From: Pseudomonadota bacterium
GTDB taxonomy: Bacteria > Pseudomonadota > Gammaproteobacteria > Xanthomonadales > Ahniellaceae
NCBI GenBank assembly: GCA_022843465.1
Contig: JALHNO010000015.1
Span: 62,001 to 126,000 of the forward strand
Length of the DNA stretch: 64,000 nt
Direction of reading: 5' to 3'
Position numbers and translations under genes: made by a program. The notes under the pieces are model-generated. The model was not told the DNA's origin and searched no databases. It worked only from the letters and a program-made list of their open reading frames with translations. Position 1 is the first letter of the stretch. Every line of letters begins with the position of its first letter. Shown here piece by piece: positions 1,077 through 12,011 of the stretch.

Positions 1077-2039
1077 GTGCTCAATCCTTTCCGCATTGCC
1101 AAGCGATTGCGCGCCATCGGACTGACCGGCATCGGTCAGCGCAACGCCGAGTTCGTGCTGATGTACAACCAGCGCCGCAACTATCCGCGCGTCGACGACA
1201 AGCTGATCACCAAGAAGCTGGCGCTGGCCGCCGGATTGCCGGTGCCCCAGCTGTACGCCGTAGTGCGCGAAGAGCACGAAATCGAAGAGCTGCACGAAAA
1301 ATTGCGCGGCCGCGAGAGCTTTGTCGTGAAACCCGCCCATGGTTCCGGTGGCGATGGCATCCTGGTCATTACCGGCCGCCGCGGTGATCGCTATCGACGA
1401 TCCAATGGCGCCCTGCTGGCGCGCGAGGAATTCGACCACCACATCTCCAACATGCTGTCGGGACTGTTCTCGCTTGGCGGTCAGCCCGACCATGCCCTGG
1501 TCGAGTATTGCGTGCAGTTCGATCCCATTTTCGACAATGTCAGCTACAAGGGTGTGCCCGACATCCGCATCATCAGCTTCCTCGGTTACCCGGTGATGTC
1601 GATGATCCGCCTGCCGACCCGGATGTCGGACGGCAAGGCCAATCTGCACCAGGGCGCCATCGGGGTAGGCATCGACATCCCGACCGGCATCACCCGACGC
1701 GGAGTCTGGGGCCGCGAGATCATCCGCGAGCACCCGGATACCGAGAGCACCATTGTTGGCCTGGAAATCCCGCACTGGGATGAGCTGCTGATGATCGCGG
1801 CACGCTGCTACGAGCTGGTCGAACTCGGCTACGTCGGTGTCGACATCGTGCTCGACAAGGACCTGGGGCCGTTGATCCTCGAGCTCAATGCACGCCCCGG
1901 GTTGGCAATCCAGATGGCCAATGGCAACGGCCTGCTGCATCGGCTGCGCCGGGTCCAGGAACTTGAACAGCAGGGCACCCTGTCGCGCGATCCAGCCGAA
2001 CGCGTCGCGTTTTCCAAGGCCAATTTCCCAACCCTGTAA
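1077..2039 (+). CDS. alpha-L-glutamate ligase-like ATP-grasp protein
   Basis: A 320-residue protein starting with GTG two bases after the previous stop, so the two are surely co-translated. It has an ATP-grasp fold: the phosphate-binding loop region FVVKPAHGSGGDGI at residues 82-95 and the metal-binding end LILELNARPGLA near residues 266-277, with the conserved E, N and R. RimK-type enzymes ligate an amino acid to a carboxyl group using ATP. This subfamily is named alpha-L-glutamate-ligase-like and is found as a pair with the 7TM inactive-transglutaminase protein, as here. No signal peptide, so it is cytoplasmic. The real substrate is not known, and I would not call it RimK. Confidence 0.85.
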   Translation: MLNPFRIAKRLRAIGLTGIGQRNAEFVLMYNQRRNYPRVDDKLITKKLALAAGLPVPQLYAVVREEHEIEELHEKLRGRESFVVKPAHGSGGDGILVITGRRGDRYRRSNGALLAREEFDHHISNMLSGLFSLGGQPDHALVEYCVQFDPIFDNVSYKGVPDIRIISFLGYPVMSMIRLPTRMSDGKANLHQGAIGVGIDIPTGITRRGVWGREIIREHPDTESTIVGLEIPHWDELLMIAARCYELVELGYVGVDIVLDKDLGPLILELNARPGLAIQMANGNGLLHRLRRVQELEQQGTLSRDPAERVAFSKANFPTL

Positions 2040-2399: not shown

Positions 2400-3752
2400 A
2401 TGACACAGAACAAACTGCAATTGCCACAGCTGGCCGGACTGATGGTGGCGGGCTTGCTGCTGCTGGGGACGGACTACGTGCTGGCTCAGGGTATTGGCAG
2501 CCGCGGCGGCAGCGAGCAGAGCACCTCGGCCATGGCAGGGCGCAACTCCAAGGCCAAGAAGGCCAAGGCCGACAAGAACAAGAAGACTGAAGTCGCGTTC
2601 CCGAACAGTTCCCGCGAAGAACCTCCGTTCAAGATGTCGGCCAAGCTTGGCAAGAAGGTTCAGACCGGCCTGGACGCGCTGAACGAAGAGGATTACGAGA
2701 AGGCGGAGGAAATCTTCAACGATATCCTCGGCCAGTCCAAGGCCATGGACAGCGAAAAGGGCACCTCCTACCAGGCGCTCGGCACCATCGCCTATGAGCG
2801 CGACGAGGATTCGCTGAAGGCGATCGAGTACAACATCAAGGCGATCGAAACCAACGCGCTGCCGAACAATTCGCACTTCGGCCTGATGCAACTCAATGCC
2901 CAGCTGTACCTGCAGGAAGACCAGTTCGACAACGCCATCCTCTGGGCCGATCGCTGGATGCGCGAGACCGGTGAAGAGAAGGACACCCTGCTGATCGTCA
3001 AGGGACAGGCCTACTATCAGCAGGAAAAATACGAGCCGGCGGCAACCGCCATCAAGCGCGCCATCGAAATTTCGGAAAAGCCCAACGACAGCTGGTACGC
3101 GGCCCTGATGGCCTGCTACACGGAGAGCGAGAACTACGCCGAGGCGATCCGCTATGGCGAAGAGGTGCTGGCACGCGATCCCAACAACAAGTCGATCATC
3201 AAGCAGCTGTCCAACGTCTTTATCGAGAGCGACCAGGAGCCCAAGGCACTGGCCCTGATGGACCGTGCCTACGCGACCGGCCTGCTCAGCACCGAGCCCG
3301 AACTGCGGCAGCTTGCCCAGCTCTATGCCTACGCCGAACAGGCGGAACAGGGTGCCAAGGTGATCGAGGAAGGTCTGGCAAAGGGCGTGCTGAAGGAGAA
3401 TCTGGCGACCTATTCCCTGCTCGGCGAGGTCTATTCGCAGGGCGACGACTACCTCAAGACCGCGGCTGCGTACAACAAGGCGGCCCTCTACGCAAAAGAT
3501 GGTGACATGAAATTCCGTGAGGCCTATGCCCTGATGGACGCCGACAAGGTCGCCGAGGCCAAGGCCGCAGCGCTCGAGGCACTCAAGAAAACGCCATTCA
3601 AGCACGAGGGCGAGTGCTGGGTGATCCTGGGCAATGCCGAGATCGAACTCGACAATAAAGCCGGCGCCATCGCGGCTTTCGAGAAGGCAGCGCAGTTCCC
3701 GTCAACCAAGAAGAATGCGGAAACCTGGCTGAAAAATGTCCGCAGAATGTGA
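2400..3752 (+). CDS. exported TPR-repeat protein of the tonB locus
   Basis: A 450-residue protein. The start is fixed by a GAGGAGG site 8 bases upstream. Residues 1-29 form a Sec signal peptide (hydrophobic core LMVAGLLLLGTDYVLA), followed by a basic, lysine-rich linker (AKKAKADKNKKTE) and then 8-10 degenerate tetratricopeptide repeats from about residue 80 to the end. TPRs mediate protein contacts, so it is probably periplasmic. A stem-loop terminator follows, so it is likely its own transcription unit ahead of tonB-exbB-exbD. I infer a periplasmic partner of the TonB machinery, like other TPR proteins found in such clusters; this is from position and not from a specific motif. No gene symbol is justified. 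Confidence 0.8.
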   Translation: MTQNKLQLPQLAGLMVAGLLLLGTDYVLAQGIGSRGGSEQSTSAMAGRNSKAKKAKADKNKKTEVAFPNSSREEPPFKMSAKLGKKVQTGLDALNEEDYEKAEEIFNDILGQSKAMDSEKGTSYQALGTIAYERDEDSLKAIEYNIKAIETNALPNNSHFGLMQLNAQLYLQEDQFDNAILWADRWMRETGEEKDTLLIVKGQAYYQQEKYEPAATAIKRAIEISEKPNDSWYAALMACYTESENYAEAIRYGEEVLARDPNNKSIIKQLSNVFIESDQEPKALALMDRAYATGLLSTEPELRQLAQLYAYAEQAEQGAKVIEEGLAKGVLKENLATYSLLGEVYSQGDDYLKTAAAYNKAALYAKDGDMKFREAYALMDADKVAEAKAAALEALKKTPFKHEGECWVILGNAEIELDNKAGAIAAFEKAAQFPSTKKNAETWLKNVRRM

Positions 3753-3760
3753 ACGGAACG

Positions 3761-3803
3761 GGGCGGCCCAACCCCTGGGCCGCCCTGGTTACGTTTCCGT
3801 TTT
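3761..3803 (+). terminator. Rho-independent-like terminator after the TPR gene
   Basis: A perfect 10-bp stem, GGGCGGCCCA (3761-3770) with TGGGCCGCCC (3776-3785), and a 5-base ACCCC loop. It starts 8 bases after the TPR stop codon. The tail is T-rich but interrupted. Confidence 0.7.
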
Positions 3804-3853
3804 GTAACGCACGTACGTCATGCTGTGCGGAAGTCTGGGGATCATTCAGTCCC

Positions 3854-4646: not shown

Positions 4647-5522
4647 ATGCTTCAAGACCAGACCTCGACTCAGCCTGCGGATGCAGGAATCGCAGACGCC
4701 GCGGCGGCTGCAGCACCTGCGGCGGTCGAACCCGCAGCGGGCAGCGTAATGGCCGCAGCATCATCGGCGCCGCCGCCGGTGGACGCCGCTGCTCCGATGT
4801 CCGATGCAGCCGCGCTGCAGACAATGGGCTTCAGCCATCTGATTCAAAATCTCGACTGGATCGGCTGGATGGTTCTGGTCACGCTGGTCATCCAGTCGCT
4901 CGGCAGCTGGGTCTACATCATCGTCAACGGCCTCCGGAACCTCAGCATCACCGCCCGCATGGAGCGCGTGATCTCGACGTTCTGGGAAACCCCGTCGGCC
5001 GCCGATGCCGTGCGCTTCATGGAAGAGCAGCCTTCATCCGAGCCGTTCTCGAAGATCGCGCTCGACTGCGCCGGTGCCGCCGCCCATCATCAGCGCCACG
5101 AAGGTTCGCGTCTGGTCGAGGCGCTCAACCGCTCCGAGTTCATCGATCGCTCCCTGCGTCAGGCTGTCACCCGCGAGAGTTCGCGTCTTGAAAATGGTCT
5201 GACCTGGCTGGCAACCACCGGCTCGTCGGCACCGTTCGTCGGTCTGCTTGGTACCGTCATGGGTATCTACCACGCCCTGATCGCCATCGGCGCATCCGGC
5301 CAGGCCTCCATGGACGTGGTGGCCGGCCCGGTCGGCGAGGCGCTGATCATGACCGCGTTCGGTCTGTTCGTCGCTATCCCGGCCGTGCTTGCCTACAACT
5401 TCTTCATGCGCTCCAACCGCAAGATCAATGCCCGTTTCGACGAATTCGCGCACGACCTGCACGACTTCTTCGCAACTGGTTCGCGCGTGGAAGGCGTCGG
5501 TCCGAAGCCGGTCAAGAAGTAA
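4647..5522 (+). CDS. exbB: ExbB / MotA-TolQ-type proton channel protein
   Basis: A 291-residue inner-membrane protein of the MotA/TolQ/ExbB family. It has an alanine/proline-rich N-terminal extension (about residues 1-60) then three transmembrane helices: about 70-92 (WIGWMVLVTLVIQSLGSWVY), about 200-222 (APFVGLLGTVMGIYHALIAI) and about 240-262 (AFGLFVAIPAVLAYNF). The second carries the GLLGTVMG signature that lines the ion path. With ExbD it forms the proton-driven motor for TonB. It sits between tonB and exbD with 25-27-base gaps. The Ala/Pro-rich leader is longer than in E. coli ExbB, as in Xanthomonas-type ExbB. Confidence 0.92.
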   Translation: MLQDQTSTQPADAGIADAAAAAAPAAVEPAAGSVMAAASSAPPPVDAAAPMSDAAALQTMGFSHLIQNLDWIGWMVLVTLVIQSLGSWVYIIVNGLRNLSITARMERVISTFWETPSAADAVRFMEEQPSSEPFSKIALDCAGAAAHHQRHEGSRLVEALNRSEFIDRSLRQAVTRESSRLENGLTWLATTGSSAPFVGLLGTVMGIYHALIAIGASGQASMDVVAGPVGEALIMTAFGLFVAIPAVLAYNFFMRSNRKINARFDEFAHDLHDFFATGSRVEGVGPKPVKK

Positions 5523-5547
5523 GCCCCAGGGCTGCCAGGAGGATCGC

Positions 5548-5958
5548 ATGGCTTTCTCAAGCAATACCGGCGGCGTCATGGCCGAAATCAATGTCACGCC
5601 GCTGGTCGACGTGATGTTGGTGCTGCTGATCATCTTCATGATCACGGCGCCCCTGATGCAGCACAAGGTGAAGATCGAACTGCCGGAGAAGTCCGTGGTC
5701 GACCGGGAGCCACTGAGTTCCCAGCCGATCTCGCTCGCGGTAAAGACCAATGGCGATCTGTTCTGGAACGATGAGCCCCTGCTCATGTCAACCCTGGATC
5801 GCCGCCTGCGCGTGGAAGCCCGTCGCGAACCCCAGCCGATGCTGGAGATTCGCGCCGATAAGACCACCCGCTACGGTGTATTGCAGGACGTCATGGGCGT
5901 GGCCAAGGTCGCCGGCATGAAGAAGATCGGTTTCGTTACCACGCCGGAAGGCAAGTAA
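5548..5958 (+). CDS. exbD1: ExbD biopolymer transporter, first copy
   Basis: A 136-residue ExbD/TolR protein. I start it at the ATG that gives MAFSSNTGGVMAE, with an AGGAGG site just upstream; the open frame extends further 5' only through exbB. It has a short cytoplasmic tail, one transmembrane helix (MLVLLIIFMITAP) with the conserved aspartate in LVDVM that takes part in proton transfer, then a periplasmic domain. It partners ExbB and TonB. The second copy starts 20 bases downstream, with the same MAFSSN start and the same length, so the pair is a tandem duplication. Confidence 0.92.
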   Translation: MAFSSNTGGVMAEINVTPLVDVMLVLLIIFMITAPLMQHKVKIELPEKSVVDREPLSSQPISLAVKTNGDLFWNDEPLLMSTLDRRLRVEARREPQPMLEIRADKTTRYGVLQDVMGVAKVAGMKKIGFVTTPEGK

Positions 5959-5978
5959 GGCGTCGCGAGGAATTCACC

Positions 5979-6389
5979 ATGGCTTTTTCAAGCAACCAGG
6001 ACGGCGGGCCGATGGCCGAAATCAACGTCACGCCCCTCGTGGACGTGATGCTGGTGCTGCTGATCATCTTCATGATCACGGCGCCGATGATGTCGCAGCG
6101 CATCCAGATCGATCTTCCGCAGAAATCCACCGTCAAGAACGACGAAGAGCCGCCACCGCCGATCGCGCTGACGATCAATTCGGCCGGCAATCTGTTCTGG
6201 GACGGCCAGCCGTTGACCAAGGATGTCTTCGAACTGCAACTGCAGTTCGAAGCCAAGAAGGATCCGCAGCCGATGCTGCAGATCAAGGCCGATCTGTTTA
6301 CCGAGTATCAGGTGCTGGCCGATGTGATGGGCTCGGCCAAGAACCTTGGCATGAACAAGATCGGATTCGAGACCACGGCAACGAACTGA
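5979..6389 (+). CDS. exbD2: ExbD biopolymer transporter, second copy
   Basis: A 136-residue ExbD paralogue, the same length as the first copy and sharing the MAFSSN start, the EINVTPLVDVMLVLLIIFM membrane segment with its aspartate, and the PQPMLQIKAD periplasmic motif. In Xanthomonas, exbD1 and exbD2 are both present and only one is needed for iron uptake, the other being linked to plant responses; whether this split applies here is inference. It ends the operon, because a strong terminator follows 21 bases after its stop. Confidence 0.92.
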   Translation: MAFSSNQDGGPMAEINVTPLVDVMLVLLIIFMITAPMMSQRIQIDLPQKSTVKNDEEPPPPIALTINSAGNLFWDGQPLTKDVFELQLQFEAKKDPQPMLQIKADLFTEYQVLADVMGSAKNLGMNKIGFETTATN

Positions 6390-6410
6390 GCGTCCAGCGA
6401 CAGGCACAAG

Positions 6411-6440
6411 AAGGCCGGGCCAGTCCCGGCCTTTTCTTTT
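6411..6440 (+). terminator. Rho-independent terminator of the tonB-exbB-exbD operon
   Basis: A perfect 9-bp stem, AAGGCCGGG (6411-6419) with CCCGGCCTT (6425-6433), a 5-base loop and the T-rich tail TTCTTTT. It separates exbD2 from the third ExbD gene. Confidence 0.88.
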
Positions 6441-6512
6441 GCGCGGACGCAAACCCGCTAACCCCGATCACCTCTGCGCCGCGTTGGATTGCCTGCCAAC
6501 CACGGAGCCGTC

Positions 6513-6935
6513 ATGCCCAACACCCAGGCCACTGCGCAAACCCAGGCGATCAGCGAGATCAATGTGACTCCGCTGGTCGACGTCATGCTCTGCCTGCTGA
6601 TCATCTTCATGATCGCGGCGCCCATGCTCAGCAGCCGGCTGCCGCTGGCGTTACCGCAGCCGACGCCACCGCCGGTGACGCGCACCGAGCCGGAACCGCC
6701 GCTGCGCCTGCGCATTCTCGCCGATGGCCACTTGCTGCTGGAGGATCAACCGATCCGCGACGAAACCCTGGCCGCGGAACTGGCCTGGCAGGCGGATCGC
6801 GATCCCCGGCGTATCCTGCAGATCGACACCGATCGTCAAGCGGTCTACCAGCGCTTTGTCGATGTGCTGGCGAGCGCACGTGAACAGGGCATCAGCCAGA
6901 TTGCACTGGCCAAGCAAACGCCCGGCGGCCACTGA
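6513..6935 (+). CDS. third ExbD/TolR family protein
   Basis: A 140-residue ExbD-family protein. I start it at ATG 6513 because a GGAG lies just upstream; a TTG at 6489 in frame is less likely. It keeps the SEINVTPLVDVML helix start with the conserved aspartate and the helix LCLLIIFMIAAPM, but the periplasmic part is more diverged: a proline-rich linker (PQPTPPPVTRTEPEPP) followed by the LQIDTDRQ motif. It lies after the operon terminator, so it may have its own promoter or depend on read-through. It may serve a different TonB or Tol-like motor. The next gene, pdxJ, is convergent, with 9 bases between the stops. Confidence 0.88.
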   Translation: MPNTQATAQTQAISEINVTPLVDVMLCLLIIFMIAAPMLSSRLPLALPQPTPPPVTRTEPEPPLRLRILADGHLLLEDQPIRDETLAAELAWQADRDPRRILQIDTDRQAVYQRFVDVLASAREQGISQIALAKQTPGGH

Positions 6936-7724: not shown

Positions 7725-7819
7725 GCGATCATCTTGCCAGCGGCCTTGCCCGGAAGCGAGCTTCCGGCGCCGCCCAGATGGAGCCGTCAGGCGCGCTCCA
7801 CAATCCGACAGGAGAAGCA

Positions 7820-8740
7820 ATGTCCACGATCGAAGCCCAGGCGCCGCCCAATCTCGAGGCCGCCGAACTCTGGCTGAGAGGCCTGCAGGATCGACTATGT
7901 GCGGCCATTGAAAAGACGGACGGCGTGGCGCACTTTCGCGAGGACAGCTGGAAGCGCGAGCAGGGTGGCGGCGGACGTACCCGGGTACTGCGTGATGGTG
8001 CCGTGTTCGAGCAGGCCGGCATCGGTTTCTCCAAGGTCATGGGCGAGACCCTGCCGGCGTCTGCGAGCGCACATCGGCCGGAATTGGCCGGACAGCCGTG
8101 GACCGCCATGGGCGTGTCCCTGGTTTTCCATCCGCACAATCCGCGGGTACCGACCACGCACATGAACGTGCGTCTGTTTGCCACCACGGGTGACAAGCCA
8201 GCCTGGTGGTTTGGCGGCGGCTACGATTTGACGCCCTGTTATGTTGAAGAAGAGGATGTCCGCCACTGGCATCGCACCGCGCAGGAGGTCTGCGCGCGTT
8301 TTGGCTCCGGGCTGTATCAGGAATTCAAGGAATGGTGCGATCGCTACTTCTACCTGAAGCACCGCAACGAAACCCGCGGTGTCGGCGGCATCTTTTTCGA
8401 CGATCTCAATCGCTGGTCGTTTGCGCGCAGCTTCGATTTTACCCGCAGCGTTGCCGATTCCTTCCTTGATGCCTATCTGCCCATCGTTCAGCGCCGCAAG
8501 AACCTGCCGTTCGGCGAACGCGAACGTTCATTCCAGCTGTATCGGCGCGGACGCTATGTCGAATTCAATCTGGTCCTCGATCGCGGCACCCTGTTCGGGC
8601 TGCAAAGTGGCGGGCGCACCGAATCGATCCTGATGTCCCTGCCGCCGCTGGTGCGCTGGGAATATGGCTTTACGCCAGAACCGGGCAGCCCGGAGGCCAG
8701 ACTGGCCGAATACCTGCGGCCACGCGACTGGCTGGTCTGA
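7820..8740 (+). CDS. hemF: oxygen-dependent coproporphyrinogen III oxidase
   Basis: A 306-residue HemF. It oxidatively decarboxylates two propionates of coproporphyrinogen III to give protoporphyrinogen IX, using O2, in heme synthesis. The start at 7820 has AGGAG 6 bases upstream; the frame runs further 5' but without a site. Family signatures seen: [39 protein letters not shown] and [18 protein letters not shown]. Length matches the usual 300-310. It is divergent from pdxJ across 95 bases that hold a small hairpin (7750-7767). The aerobic enzyme implies oxygen-rich growth; an oxygen-independent HemN would have to lie elsewhere. Confidence 0.96.
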
Positions 8741-8785
8741 GCCATCACCGGCGCGCCGTGCTGCGCGTTGAAAGCCAGACCGCAG

Positions 8786-8912
8786 AAAAAAGTTGGCCCC
8801 GGTCACTTGGGGGTGTGCCGGGGCCGGATCGCAGAGTGACTTGGGGAAAGTCCAGTCCGCTGTGTTCACTCAGGGGAGGGAGTGAACGGATCGTTGGGGG
8901 TCGATCCGTACA
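8786..8912 (-). ncRNA. sX13-like small RNA downstream of polA
   Basis: The 413-base gap between hemF and polA holds a chain of stem-loops on the minus strand, each with a C-rich loop. In order they are: 8908-8902 with 8893-8887 (7 bp, CGGATCG/CGATCCG), 8887-8880 with 8871-8864 (8 bp, GTTCACTC, loop CCTCCCCT), 8852-8848 with 8842-8838 (5 bp, loop TCCCC), and 8825-8818 with 8802-8795 (8 bp, GGCCCCGG, loop containing CCCCC). The last is followed by TTTTTT (8791-8786), a Rho-independent terminator. The gene lies downstream of polA on the same strand, as do sX13 of Xanthomonas, Spot 42 and ErsA. sX13 is a roughly 115-nt RNA with C-rich loops that pair with GGGG motifs in mRNAs. The 5' end is my estimate; a weak TTGAAC -35 is at 8942-8937. 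Confidence 0.72.
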
Positions 8913-9153
8913 CTTTGATGGGGTCTGGCACGGAAGGTTCAACGGCGTTATCAGTTCCGTTTACTCTGCATTTAGTTAGGTATCAGCAGGTAAACATGAA
9001 ATTTCCGTTAGCAAACTACCGGACTAGTGCCCCGCCGCAATAGCCCGCTCCGTCAGCGGGATCACCGCAGATTTCTGGCACAGGCAAGCGCAGGTCGCTG
9101 GCGAATGCGAGGCAGTGACCTGCTCCGATCTCCACCACCCAATGGCGCGATGC

Positions 9154-11904
9154 TCAGTGCGCTTCATCCCAGTTGTCACCAGCGCCGGTCTCGACCAGCA
9201 GCGGAACCCGCAAGTCCGCAGCACGGCCCATGCGTTCGCGCAGACCGGCGCTGATCTCGTCAACACAGTCGGCACGCACTTCCAGCACGAGTTCGTCGTG
9301 CACCTGCAACAGCAGTCGCGCCTCTTCATGGCGTCCGCGCAGCCACTGGTCGACGTCGAGCATGGCGCGCTTGATGATGTCGGCGGCGGTGCCCTGCATC
9401 GGCGCATTGATGGCGGCACGTTCGGCGCCCTGGCGCTGTGCCGGATTACGCGAATGGATCTCGCGCAGATGCAGGCGGCGTCCGAACACGGTTTCGACAA
9501 AGCCATCGCGCCGCGCACGTTCCCGCACCGATTCCATATAGCCCTGGACACCGGGGTAGCGCTGGAAATAGAGATTGATGTATTCCTGCGCCTGGCCACG
9601 ACCAACCCCCAGTTGGCGGGCAAGGCCGAAGGCCGACATGCCGTACATCAGTCCGAAGTTGATCGCCTTGGCGGCGCGCCGCTGATCAGCGTTCACCGCA
9701 TCCCGCGACACCCCGAACACTTCAGCCGCTGTTGCCCGATGCACATCCTCGCCATGGGCGAAGGCGTCGAGCAGACCGGGGTCCTCGGAAAGATGCGCCA
9801 TGATGCGCAACTCGATCTGAGAATAGTCAGCCGCCACCACCTTGAATCCGGGCGGTGCAATGAACGCGGTGCGGATTCGCCGGCCTTCTTCGGTGCGGAT
9901 CGGGATGTTCTGCAGATTTGGATCGGTTGAACTCAGGCGCCCGGTCGCAGCCACCGCCTGATGGAACGAGGTGTGCACGCGACCGCTGTCGGGATTGATC
10001 TGCTCCGGCAACTTGTCGGTGTAGGTCGAGACCAGCTTGGCATAGCCGCGATACTCAAGAATCAGCCGCGGCAGTTCGTGATGCTCGGCCAGATCCGTAA
10101 TCGCATCCTCATTGGTCGACGGCTGTCCGGTCGGCGTCTTCGCGAGCACCGGCAACTTGAGTTCATCGTAGAGCACCGCCTGCAACTGCTTGGGCGAGTC
10201 CAGACTGAAACTGTGACCGACGCTGGCATGCGCCTGCTCGATGGTGGCATGCATGCGCTTGCGCAACTCGTGGGTCTGCGCACGCAGTTTGCCGGCATCG
10301 ATCAGAAAACCCTCGCGCTCCATCCGCGCCAGAACTGGGACCAGGGGCATCTCGATCTCGTCGAACACCCGGCACACGGAAGGCACGGACTCCAGCAAGG
10401 GCCGCAGATGCTGGTGCAGACGCAGGGTGACATCGGCATCCTCGGCCGCATAGGCAACTGCCTGCTCCAGCGCGACATCGGCAAACGAAATCTGCTTGGC
10501 GCCCTTGCCGGCAACCTCCTCGAAAGCCACCGTCTTGATGCCCAGATACAGCCGGGCCAGAGAATCCATATCGTGGCGGGTAATCGTCGAATTCCAGACG
10601 TAGCTCTCCAGCATGGTGTCGTAGCGATAGCCCTGCACCGCTACGCCATAGCGCGCGAGTACATGCATGTCGTACTTGCCATGCTGCCCCACTTTCGCGC
10701 GCGCTGGATCTTCCAGCAGAGGCTTGAGCGCGGCGAGGGTGTCCATCAAGTCCAGTTGCGGCGGTGTTCCTGGCGCGCGATGCCCGAGTGGAATATAGGC
10801 GGCGTGGCCAGGTTCGCAGGCCAGCGAAATGCCCACCAGTTCGGCACGGTGGGCGTCCAGACTGGTGGTCTCGGTATCGAACGCGAACACTTCGGCAGCG
10901 CTCAGCCGCGCAATCCAGCGCTCCAGCGCTGCCCGATCCAGGATCGCCTCATACTGCAATTCGCGTGGTGGCGCGGGGGGCGGCGCGGAGCCAGTGCCGT
11001 TCGGATCGCGCTCGCTCGCGGCAGCGGCAGGCGCGGCAACCGGTGCTGGCGAGGAACCTCCATCGAGGTCACGAAGCGCCGCCCGAAAACCGTAGCGGGT
11101 ATACAACGCGCGCAACTGTTCCGCGTCAGGCGCGCCGGCAATCAATTGCTCGGGTGCCGAGTCGAGTTCGAGTTCGGTACGCACGCGGGCAAGTTCACGC
11201 GACAGCGGCAGCTGGGGCAGGGCGGCGCGCAGGTTTTCGCCGATCTTGCCGCTGAAGCGATCAGCATTGGCGATGATCGCATCAAGGCTGCCGTACTCGG
11301 CCAGCCACTTGGCAGCAGTCTTCTCGCCGCACTTCTCGACACCCGGAATATTGTCCACCTTGTCGCCCATCAGTGCGAGAAAGTCGACGATCTGATCCGG
11401 CCGTACCCCGAACTTGGCAAAGACGCCCTCGGCATCCAGCGACTGGTTGCTCATGGTATTGATCAGGTGGATACGCTCGTCGACCAGCTGGGCCAGGTCC
11501 TTGTCACCGGTCGAGATCGTCACCTCGATCCCTTTCGCTGCGGCCTGCCGGGCCAGGCTGCCAATGACATCGTCGGCCTCGACCCCGGACACGCGCAGCA
11601 CCGGAATGCCGAGCGCGCGTACGATCGCCAGCATCGGCTCAATCTGCGCACGCAGCTCATCGGGCATCGGCGGTCGATTCGCCTTGTAGGCGGGAAACAG
11701 CTCGTGGCGGAAGTTCTTGCCACTGGCGTCCATCACGAAGCCAAGAAAATCCGGCTTCTGCGCCATATGCGCACGCAACATGTTGACTACGCCAAACAGC
11801 GCGCCGGTTGGCTCGCCCTGCTCATTGCTCAGCGGCGGCAAGGCGTGAAAGGCTCGGAACAGGTAGGCGGAGCCATCGATCAGGATCAGGCGTGGAGCGG
11901 ACAT
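9154..11904 (-). CDS. polA: DNA polymerase I
   Basis: A 916-residue DNA polymerase I, close to the E. coli length of 928. Domains in order: a 5' nuclease domain to about residue 300 (LILIDGSAYLFRAFHA; FPAYKANR), a 3'-5' exonuclease domain (about 330-510) with an intact DxE motif, FDTETTSLD, and YAAEDADVT, then the polymerase domain with motif A (VVAADYSQIELRIM), motif B (RRAAKAINFGLMYG) and motif C (LLQVHDELVLEV). All catalytic residues are present, so it should have proofreading and nick translation for Okazaki processing and repair. The start is ATG 11904 or 11910, which differ by two residues; no strong ribosome site decides. The stop is followed by a 413-base gap with an sRNA. Confidence 0.97.
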   Translation of the reverse strand: MSAPRLILIDGSAYLFRAFHALPPLSNEQGEPTGALFGVVNMLRAHMAQKPDFLGFVMDASGKNFRHELFPAYKANRPPMPDELRAQIEPMLAIVRALGIPVLRVSGVEADDVIGSLARQAAAKGIEVTISTGDKDLAQLVDERIHLINTMSNQSLDAEGVFAKFGVRPDQIVDFLALMGDKVDNIPGVEKCGEKTAAKWLAEYGSLDAIIANADRFSGKIGENLRAALPQLPLSRELARVRTELELDSAPEQLIAGAPDAEQLRALYTRYGFRAALRDLDGGSSPAPVAAPAAAASERDPNGTGSAPPPAPPRELQYEAILDRAALERWIARLSAAEVFAFDTETTSLDAHRAELVGISLACEPGHAAYIPLGHRAPGTPPQLDLMDTLAALKPLLEDPARAKVGQHGKYDMHVLARYGVAVQGYRYDTMLESYVWNSTITRHDMDSLARLYLGIKTVAFEEVAGKGAKQISFADVALEQAVAYAAEDADVTLRLHQHLRPLLESVPSVCRVFDEIEMPLVPVLARMEREGFLIDAGKLRAQTHELRKRMHATIEQAHASVGHSFSLDSPKQLQAVLYDELKLPVLAKTPTGQPSTNEDAITDLAEHHELPRLILEYRGYAKLVSTYTDKLPEQINPDSGRVHTSFHQAVAATGRLSSTDPNLQNIPIRTEEGRRIRTAFIAPPGFKVVAADYSQIELRIMAHLSEDPGLLDAFAHGEDVHRATAAEVFGVSRDAVNADQRRAAKAINFGLMYGMSAFGLARQLGVGRGQAQEYINLYFQRYPGVQGYMESVRERARRDGFVETVFGRRLHLREIHSRNPAQRQGAERAAINAPMQGTAADIIKRAMLDVDQWLRGRHEEARLLLQVHDELVLEVRADCVDEISAGLRERMGRAADLRVPLLVETGAGDNWDEAH

Positions 11905-12011
11905 GGACATACTCGATGGCAACCAGGGTCGCCGCCATGTTAGGCGCTCCGCGCCTTGCAGCAAACCCGCCGCAGCGTAAGCTTGGCCGCGGTGCAGCCA
12001 TGGAGACCCTC

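Follow-up and report, generated by a model that had tools for sequence, protein, structure and literature searches.

The small RNA sX13 (RF02232) of Xanthomonas campestris pv. vesicatoria was reportedly first described in a 2012 paper. It is encoded behind polA, folds into three hairpins with CCCC or CCCCC loops and ends in a terminator. The parts of PMC3771888 drawn on here describe it as exclusive to the Xanthomonadaceae and as always lying behind polA, and the authors of that 2013 study raised the question of similar RNAs at the polA loci of other bacteria. As described in Xanthomonas, sX13 acts independently of Hfq and represses hfq through a 4G site close to the start codon of that gene. 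In Xanthomonas the C-rich loops of sX13 repress mRNAs with G-rich sites near the start codon, which requires C motifs in the loops and G motifs in the targets (PMC3771888, in part). Compensatory mutants of sX13 did not restore repression (PMC3771888, in part), so that direct pairing is not fully proven for this RNA.

Several other small RNAs are associated with polA. Pseudomon-1/ErsA (RF01719) of Pseudomonas lies behind the gene, has a C-rich terminator loop and is raised by sigma-22, a sigma-E homologue (PMC8575079, in part). Spot 42 and the alpha-r7 RNAs are also linked to polA, and the alpha-r7 RNAs have three stem-loops with C-rich motifs (PMC3771888, in part). Another described RNA, anti-hemB (RF02837; ncS04 of Burkholderia), is stated to have been shown to bind Hfq (PMC5688073, in part).

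The RNA described here is encoded in the window, the whole stretch of 64,000 nucleotides that was analysed. Like ErsA, Spot 42 and the alpha-r7 RNAs, it is associated with polA. With sX13 it shares the position behind polA, a similar size, and three hairpins (SL1-SL3) with such loops and a terminator end, and one covariance model, R1, finds both RNAs. It differs from sX13 in having four C-rich loops instead of three, in a host that lies outside the clade of the Xanthomonadaceae and Rhodanobacteraceae, in a clearer sigma-E-type promoter and in an hfq gene devoid of the 4G site. The favoured reading, with a probability of roughly 0.77, is that of a trans-acting sRNA homologous to sX13, which has its own sigma-E-type promoter and whose C-rich loops would hold down the translation of mRNAs with G-rich sites. 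This reading starts from the observed structure, homology, covariation and conservation of promoter and repeat, and extends by analogy to transcription, sigma-E dependence, the regulator, the targets and the mode of action.

The locus and its kinship with sX13

The original prediction had placed four stem-loops on the minus strand, with CCCC in each loop and a T run at the end, just downstream of polA and on the same strand. Both the fold and the position are borne out (Table 1). The minus strand from 8912 to 8786 folds with a minimum free energy of -53.4 kcal/mol (z -6.16), none of 200 shuffles being as stable, and CCCC is present in the loops of SL0, SL1, SL2 and SL3. The stop codon of polA is at 9154, and the RNA follows about 240 nt downstream. 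A simple promoter and terminator scan at the RNA locus reported neither a sigma-70 promoter nor a terminator; the latter may have been missed because of an unpaired A in the stem and the AAC that precedes the T run. The convergent neighbour presumably encodes coproporphyrinogen oxidase, a name suggested by its translation. Elsewhere in the window, one ExbB-like and three ExbD-like ORFs stand in series on the plus strand (4647-6935; translations, by eye).

Table 1. Features of the RNA locus in the window (window coordinates)
Feature	Position	Strand	Basis or remark
SL0, 5' hairpin	8907-8888	minus	C-rich loop ACCCCCAA; window-family variant
SL1	8887-8864	minus	loop CCUCCCCU; counterpart of sX13 hairpin 1
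SL2	8860-8831	minus	loop UCCCC; counterpart of sX13 hairpin 2
SL3, terminator hairpin	8825-8795	minus	loop ACCCCCAA; counterpart of sX13 hairpin 3
AAC, then TTTTTT (8791-8786)	3' of SL3	minus	tail of predicted terminator
Sigma-E-type promoter, GAAC-N18-TCAAA	8914..8940 (-35 8940-8937, -10 8918-8914)	minus	motif conservation
11-bp direct repeat, TAAAT-N6-TAAAC (TRAAY-N6-TRAAY)	8959..8974	minus	putative OmpR/PhoB-type response-regulator site
polA (DNA polymerase I)	9154..11964	minus	translation; C-terminal 348 aa match PolA loci of relatives
hemF-like gene	7778..8740	plus	convergent neighbour of the RNA; name from translation

A large part of the RNA is also covered by three ORFs of at least 60 aa: one of 65 aa (8745-8942) and one of 113 aa (8528-8869) on the minus strand, and one of 73 aa (8758-8979) on the plus strand. 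A protein-coding reading of the locus was rejected: the homologues in the window family are 126-143 nt long, and these lengths together with the compensatory changes in the stems argue for an RNA rather than codons.

At gathering score no Rfam family matched anywhere in the window, neither RF01719 nor RF02837 nor a family of Spot 42 or alpha-r7. At permissive settings RF02232 aligned over its full length (1-115) to positions 8895-8790 with 25.8 bits (E 0.0072 in 561 bases), below its gathering cut-off of 50 bits, and the RNA is therefore a divergent homologue and not a member of RF02232 as curated. A genome search with RF02232 under strict filters gave no match in the nine window-family genomes shown, that of the window included. 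Across the order it matched 133 of 249 genomes at E<=0.01, 71 of them over the cut-off, and among the control genomes 1 of 14, below the cut-off.

A covariance-model search based on sX13 homologues, which had been named as a check on the original prediction, was made with R1. This model was built from alignment A3 of 16 Rhodanobacteraceae-type sequences from behind polA, with no Xanthomonadaceae and no window-family sequences, and its structure was set by hand from one sequence. R1 matches the window at 8914-8788 with 45.6 bits and an E-value, rough as all those of R1 are, of 4.6e-10; the sole other match in the window has 8.9 bits. In the whole genome of the window, where its E-value is 3.7e-8, no other match is listed at E<=10. 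The GTDB family of the window (f1) comprises 10 genomes, 7 of which gave polA matches, and R1 matches in all seven of these polA loci with 28.6-53.2 bits, partially in L037. In the fragmented assemblies G001 and G009 of this family R1 found nothing convincing; in the likewise fragmented G003 it scored 26.3 bits with no PolA beside the match, and this row was dropped.

Among polA loci counted as Xanthomonadales, 96 of 98 have an R1 match at E<=1. The 98 are L031-L142 less 14 assigned elsewhere by title or tree; some sequences occur twice (L044/L076), 16 of the loci are inside the model, and L088 and L110 are truncated where their contigs end. The match in L130 is 1.8 kb from polA, and L050 and L067 have none. 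In the PolA tree, which was midpoint-rooted for drawing only, the seven window-family sequences form one group (support 91/76) that falls outside the well-supported clade of Xanthomonadaceae and Rhodanobacteraceae (98/94).

The features of sX13 in a wide sense are all found at this locus: a match to the model of a sister family, a site downstream of polA and three stable hairpins with C-rich loops (SL1-SL3). Linkage to polA, the order of the hairpins, the loop motifs and the sister-family covariance model agree, and the kinship with sX13 claimed at the outset stands. The description of the window RNA as related to sX13 and as having an additional C-rich loop is supported.

The original prediction had also staked itself on the conservation of the stems by compensatory change, and here too it passed. 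An alignment of 52 sequences to R1 has changes on both sides in 34 of 38 pairs, and 92.6% of its cells pair. Both-side changes number 502 cells, against 150.1 +- 12.9 in shuffles of this alignment, and the covariation score is 0.657, compared with 0.213 for shuffled and at most 0.113 for slid alignments. These counts were made on the model-based alignments A4 and A5, both of which lean towards structure, the 52-sequence alignment because it was fitted to the model. In the MAFFT alignments A1 and A2, as read, SL0 and SL1 are out of register between families, and RNAalifold on A2 gave pairs for SL2 and SL3 alone.

Three genomes of one Xanthomonadaceae genus contain a second match of 93 nt and 33-34 bits off the main locus (G030:C128:10116-10208, G045:C4:113458-113550 and G051:C1:136810-136902), possibly a paralogue.

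The fourth C-rich loop

Most of the branches that were folded have four hairpins once the 5' hairpin SL0 is counted. All 7 window-family loci have CCCC in their first loop, against none of 105 other sequences scored (0/36, 0/42 and 0/27 by group), which identifies SL0 as the hairpin that carries the extra C-rich loop. The 105 omit identical sequences as well as L196, L189, L088 and L110, the last two being truncated; among those counted are L119, placed by the tree on a long branch outside the order, and two sequences in which the loop of SL1 was predicted first. The expectation of one loop more than in sX13 was thus correct as to the extra C-rich loop and mistaken as to the hairpin. The 5-bp stem with loop UCCCC that had been singled out (GACUU-UCCCC-AAGUC) is the tip of SL2, the counterpart of sX13 hairpin 2 in the alignment.

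Sequences of the Rhodanobacteraceae and Xanthomonadaceae types have a GCAA-like SL0 loop, such as CGACAGGCGCAACGCCTGTCG, and elsewhere this loop is variable. Within the window family the pairing of SL0 is maintained through changes such as A-U to G-C (by eye). The 5' region of sX13 was described as unstructured (PMC3771888, in part). In the Xanthomonas codiaei locus L078, RF02232 starts at 3721 and the R1 match (3704-3837) at 3704, which puts the 5' end of RF02232 inside the SL0 loop. We infer that the 5' end of sX13 either is processed or needs to be re-mapped; since the RF02232 start lies within the loop of a conserved 5' hairpin, the RNA described as sX13 may be a processed form.

The acquisition of a C-rich loop by SL0 could be drift in a spacer hairpin that has no separate function, and sX13 devoid of its first 14 nt still complements in Xanthomonas (PMC3771888, in part). 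The retention of CCCC in SL0 in all seven genomes, despite differing stem and loop sequences and a PolA C-terminal identity to that of the window of 70-80%, makes such drift rather unlikely. The same is indicated by G002 of the window family, in which the loops of SL1 and SL2 have become GUGA and GCAA and CCCC is kept in SL0 and SL3. According to the favoured reading, the 5' hairpin of the window family, whose loop in relatives is different and often GCAA-like, would be an added fourth pairing module. A single hairpin loop that has turned C-rich offers a natural experiment on the gain of such a module by an sRNA.

Promoter region and proposed action

The -35 region of sigma-E promoters in E. 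coli is GAACTT-like and is separated by a spacer of about 16 nt from a TCNNA-like -10 region. A GAAC..TC element, which we take to correspond to this consensus, is found upstream of both the RNA and rpoE. The pattern GAAC-N17-19-TC[AT] precedes the RNA in all 7 window-family loci, with 0.19 expected from dinucleotide shuffles, in 18 of 36 Rhodanobacteraceae-type loci (1.18 expected) and in 24 of 49 Xanthomonadaceae-type loci (1.52 expected), so that about half of the loci of the latter two types do not have the exact pattern. AAC[CT] occupies the promoter position in 36/36 Rhodanobacteraceae-type loci, and a fuller form, such as GGAACTT...GGTCTGA, was seen by eye in some loci of the families f3, f4, f6, f7, f9, f10 and f11. 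Among the rpoE upstream regions of the f1 genomes, GAACT is present in 10/10 and TC 18 nt after GAAC in 9/10, as read from the alignment with no shuffle control; the strict promoter pattern is found there in 4/10. The RNA appears to be preceded by its own ECF sigma-E (RpoE)-type promoter: the pattern is present, and dependence on this sigma factor is putative. Searches of open-access papers turned up none that describes a promoter of this type for sX13.

Alternatively, an sX13-type sRNA might be driven by the housekeeping sigma factor, GAAC and TC being parts of another element. The element has drifted in Xanthomonas (CACGATCC...TTATAT), and sX13 was termed constitutively expressed (PMC3771888, in part). 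The parts that are invariant within the window family are, however, GAAC and ATC rather than TTGACA/TATAAT, the simple scan returned no sigma-70 match at the window locus, and beyond the order the GAAC..TC element is present in 39 of 53 class-wide loci (recount), against 279 of 11200 random 69-mers drawn from those loci. This alternative is accordingly considered unlikely, and a sigma-E-type promoter is preferred.

A direct repeat, TRAAY-N6-TRAAY, lies further upstream. In each of the seven window-family loci a distance of 17-19 nt separates it from the -35 element downstream, and 0.01 such loci are expected in shuffles. By type, the repeat is present in 7/7 window-family, 30/36 Rhodanobacteraceae-type and 29/49 Xanthomonadaceae-type loci (0.01, 0.10 and 0.26 in shuffles). 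Of 29 other loci of the order one has it (L184, of the Xanthomonadaceae family f2; 0.05 in shuffles), and of the 53 loci outside the order none does. Altered spacers of 3-5 and 7-9 gave 2 sites in all. With a widened pattern a -35 element was assigned in 63 of the 66 repeat-bearing loci, and its distance to the repeat is 17-19 in 25 loci, 28-29 in 32, 15-16 in 4 and 25-26 in 2. The distances form two classes that differ by roughly one turn of the helix, which is what an activator bound to one face of the DNA would require.

The PhoP box is GTTTA, the reverse complement of which is TAAAC. The half-site of the repeat resembles this box, and we infer the possible identity of the regulator from this likeness. 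In the genome of the window RTTYA-N6-RTTYA is not enriched (9 sites, that of the window included, against 13 for a control pattern), and a search of the open-access literature yielded no paper linking the PhoP box, Xanthomonas and a direct repeat.

The RNA would be a minus-strand transcript of about 120-125 nt, with a predicted start near 8911-8907 and an end near 8787, made from the ECF sigma-E (RpoE)-type promoter, which a response regulator on the 11-bp repeat probably tunes. Its four rigid hairpins would present C-rich loops for kissing or loop-linear pairing with ribosome-binding or enhancer sites that are rich in G and close to start codons. Pairing would hold down translation, and an envelope-stress signal would in this manner lower the output of many mRNAs. 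That the RNA acts as sX13 does, with envelope stress as the likely signal, is suggested by the experiments on sX13. High salt, 37 C and minimal medium A raise the level of sX13, and H2O2, 4 C and lack of nitrogen leave it unchanged (PMC3771888, in part); for ncS04/anti-hemB of Burkholderia a qPCR table of seven conditions showed no change (PMC5688073, in part). Because both RNAs are unchanged in several conditions, the stress response is not a general one.

Several similar C-rich single-stranded loops on rigid stems might also serve as a decoy that titrates a C-binding protein and does not pair with mRNA. To our knowledge, no C-binding protein is known for sX13. The requirement of sX13 repression for G motifs in target mRNAs also argues against a decoy (PMC3771888, in part), which is extremely improbable; repression by pairing loops remains the preferred mode of action.

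The hfq gene was rejected as a conserved target: GGGG was found between -40 and +60 in 0 of 9 window-family hfq loci, one of which has GGGG at -41 and -58. The missing 4G site in f1 counts against a regulon common with sX13. Repression of hfq through this site is a property of one member and is not needed for homology.

Distribution beyond the order

R1 was run under strict filters over 370 genomes of the class with a threshold of E<=1e-4. It matched 58 of them, a minority, of which 53, from about 33 families, are outside the order. In a separate draw of 249 genomes of the phylum R1 matched nine, eight in the order and one outside the class (34.4 bits), and none elsewhere in the class; this draw serves as a control and also indicates that a different sample of class genomes can give no match. 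In 65 matches from loci outside the order 37 of 38 pairs have changed on both sides. CCCC in the first loop was found in 1 of the 53 loci (L236).

In 37 of the 53 loci outside the order the RNA lies behind PolA on the same strand, in 32 of them within 500 nt of the PolA match; one of the others has a convergent PolA and 15 have no PolA in the fetched stretch. Fifty-six class-wide loci were analysed, and L275-L277, being further copies, were left out of the 53; with them the counts are 39/56 behind PolA and 41/56 for the GAAC..TC element. Some of the weak matches apart from polA may be due to chance, as in L268, which has no C-rich loops. Several families of the order also have no PolA match beside the RNA in the fetched stretch. 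As relatives in the order and the class are not all linked to polA, this linkage is a weak defining feature. In L203 and L204 (family f7) the RNA is at the 3' end of polA and convergent with it.

These observations bear on whether the RNA is a gene at all. It follows polA on the same strand at a distance of some 240 nt, and its terminator-like hairpin is the closest one to that gene, as would be so for a structured 3' untranslated region and terminator of polA or an RNA processed from its mRNA. The conserved promoter-type motif and the phased repeat that separate polA from the RNA, the families of the order with no PolA match beside it, and the 16 of 53 class-wide loci in which PolA is not upstream on the same strand make such an origin very improbable, and a separate sRNA gene is preferred.

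Rfam models applied to the 16 best of the 53 loci gave one match at gathering score, L235, where anti-hemB (RF02837, 57.9 bits) overlaps the R1 family (48.1 bits). This match (1501-1626, minus strand) is outside the order and 58 nt behind the PolA match; the coincidence of the two models behind polA calls the antisense name "anti-hemB" into question. Nine Pseudomonas-type loci among 15 polA loci scanned are RF01719 (ErsA), and R1 scores 15.5-25.4 bits on them with alignments that lean on the terminator. ErsA perhaps belongs to a wider sX13-type family. Searches of open-access papers found none joining sX13 and ErsA and no report of such a wider family, and for sRNAs encoded downstream of polA they found only the sX13 paper.

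We consider it moderately probable that sX13 is a branch of an old, mostly polA-linked family of sigma-E-controlled, four-hairpin RNAs with C-rich loops scattered across the Gammaproteobacteria (in the GTDB sense), which would include anti-hemB and perhaps ErsA and would sometimes occur in tandem copies. In the window family the 5' hairpin would have been reshaped to provide a fourth C-rich loop for pairing, and the added response-regulator repeat would be common to the window family, the Xanthomonadaceae and the Rhodanobacteraceae. The data speak for a wide family and offer a hypothetical promoter arrangement, sigma-E with a phased repeat, that would tie sX13 to envelope-stress control and to ErsA.

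Several loci outside the order hold more than one copy of the RNA. Tandem copies number four in G551 (L224/L275), three in G644 (L238) and three in G612 (L230), and L228, L236, L247, L250 and L260 have two copies each, the second copy of L260 being weak (21.9 bits). Five of these eight multi-copy loci are behind polA.
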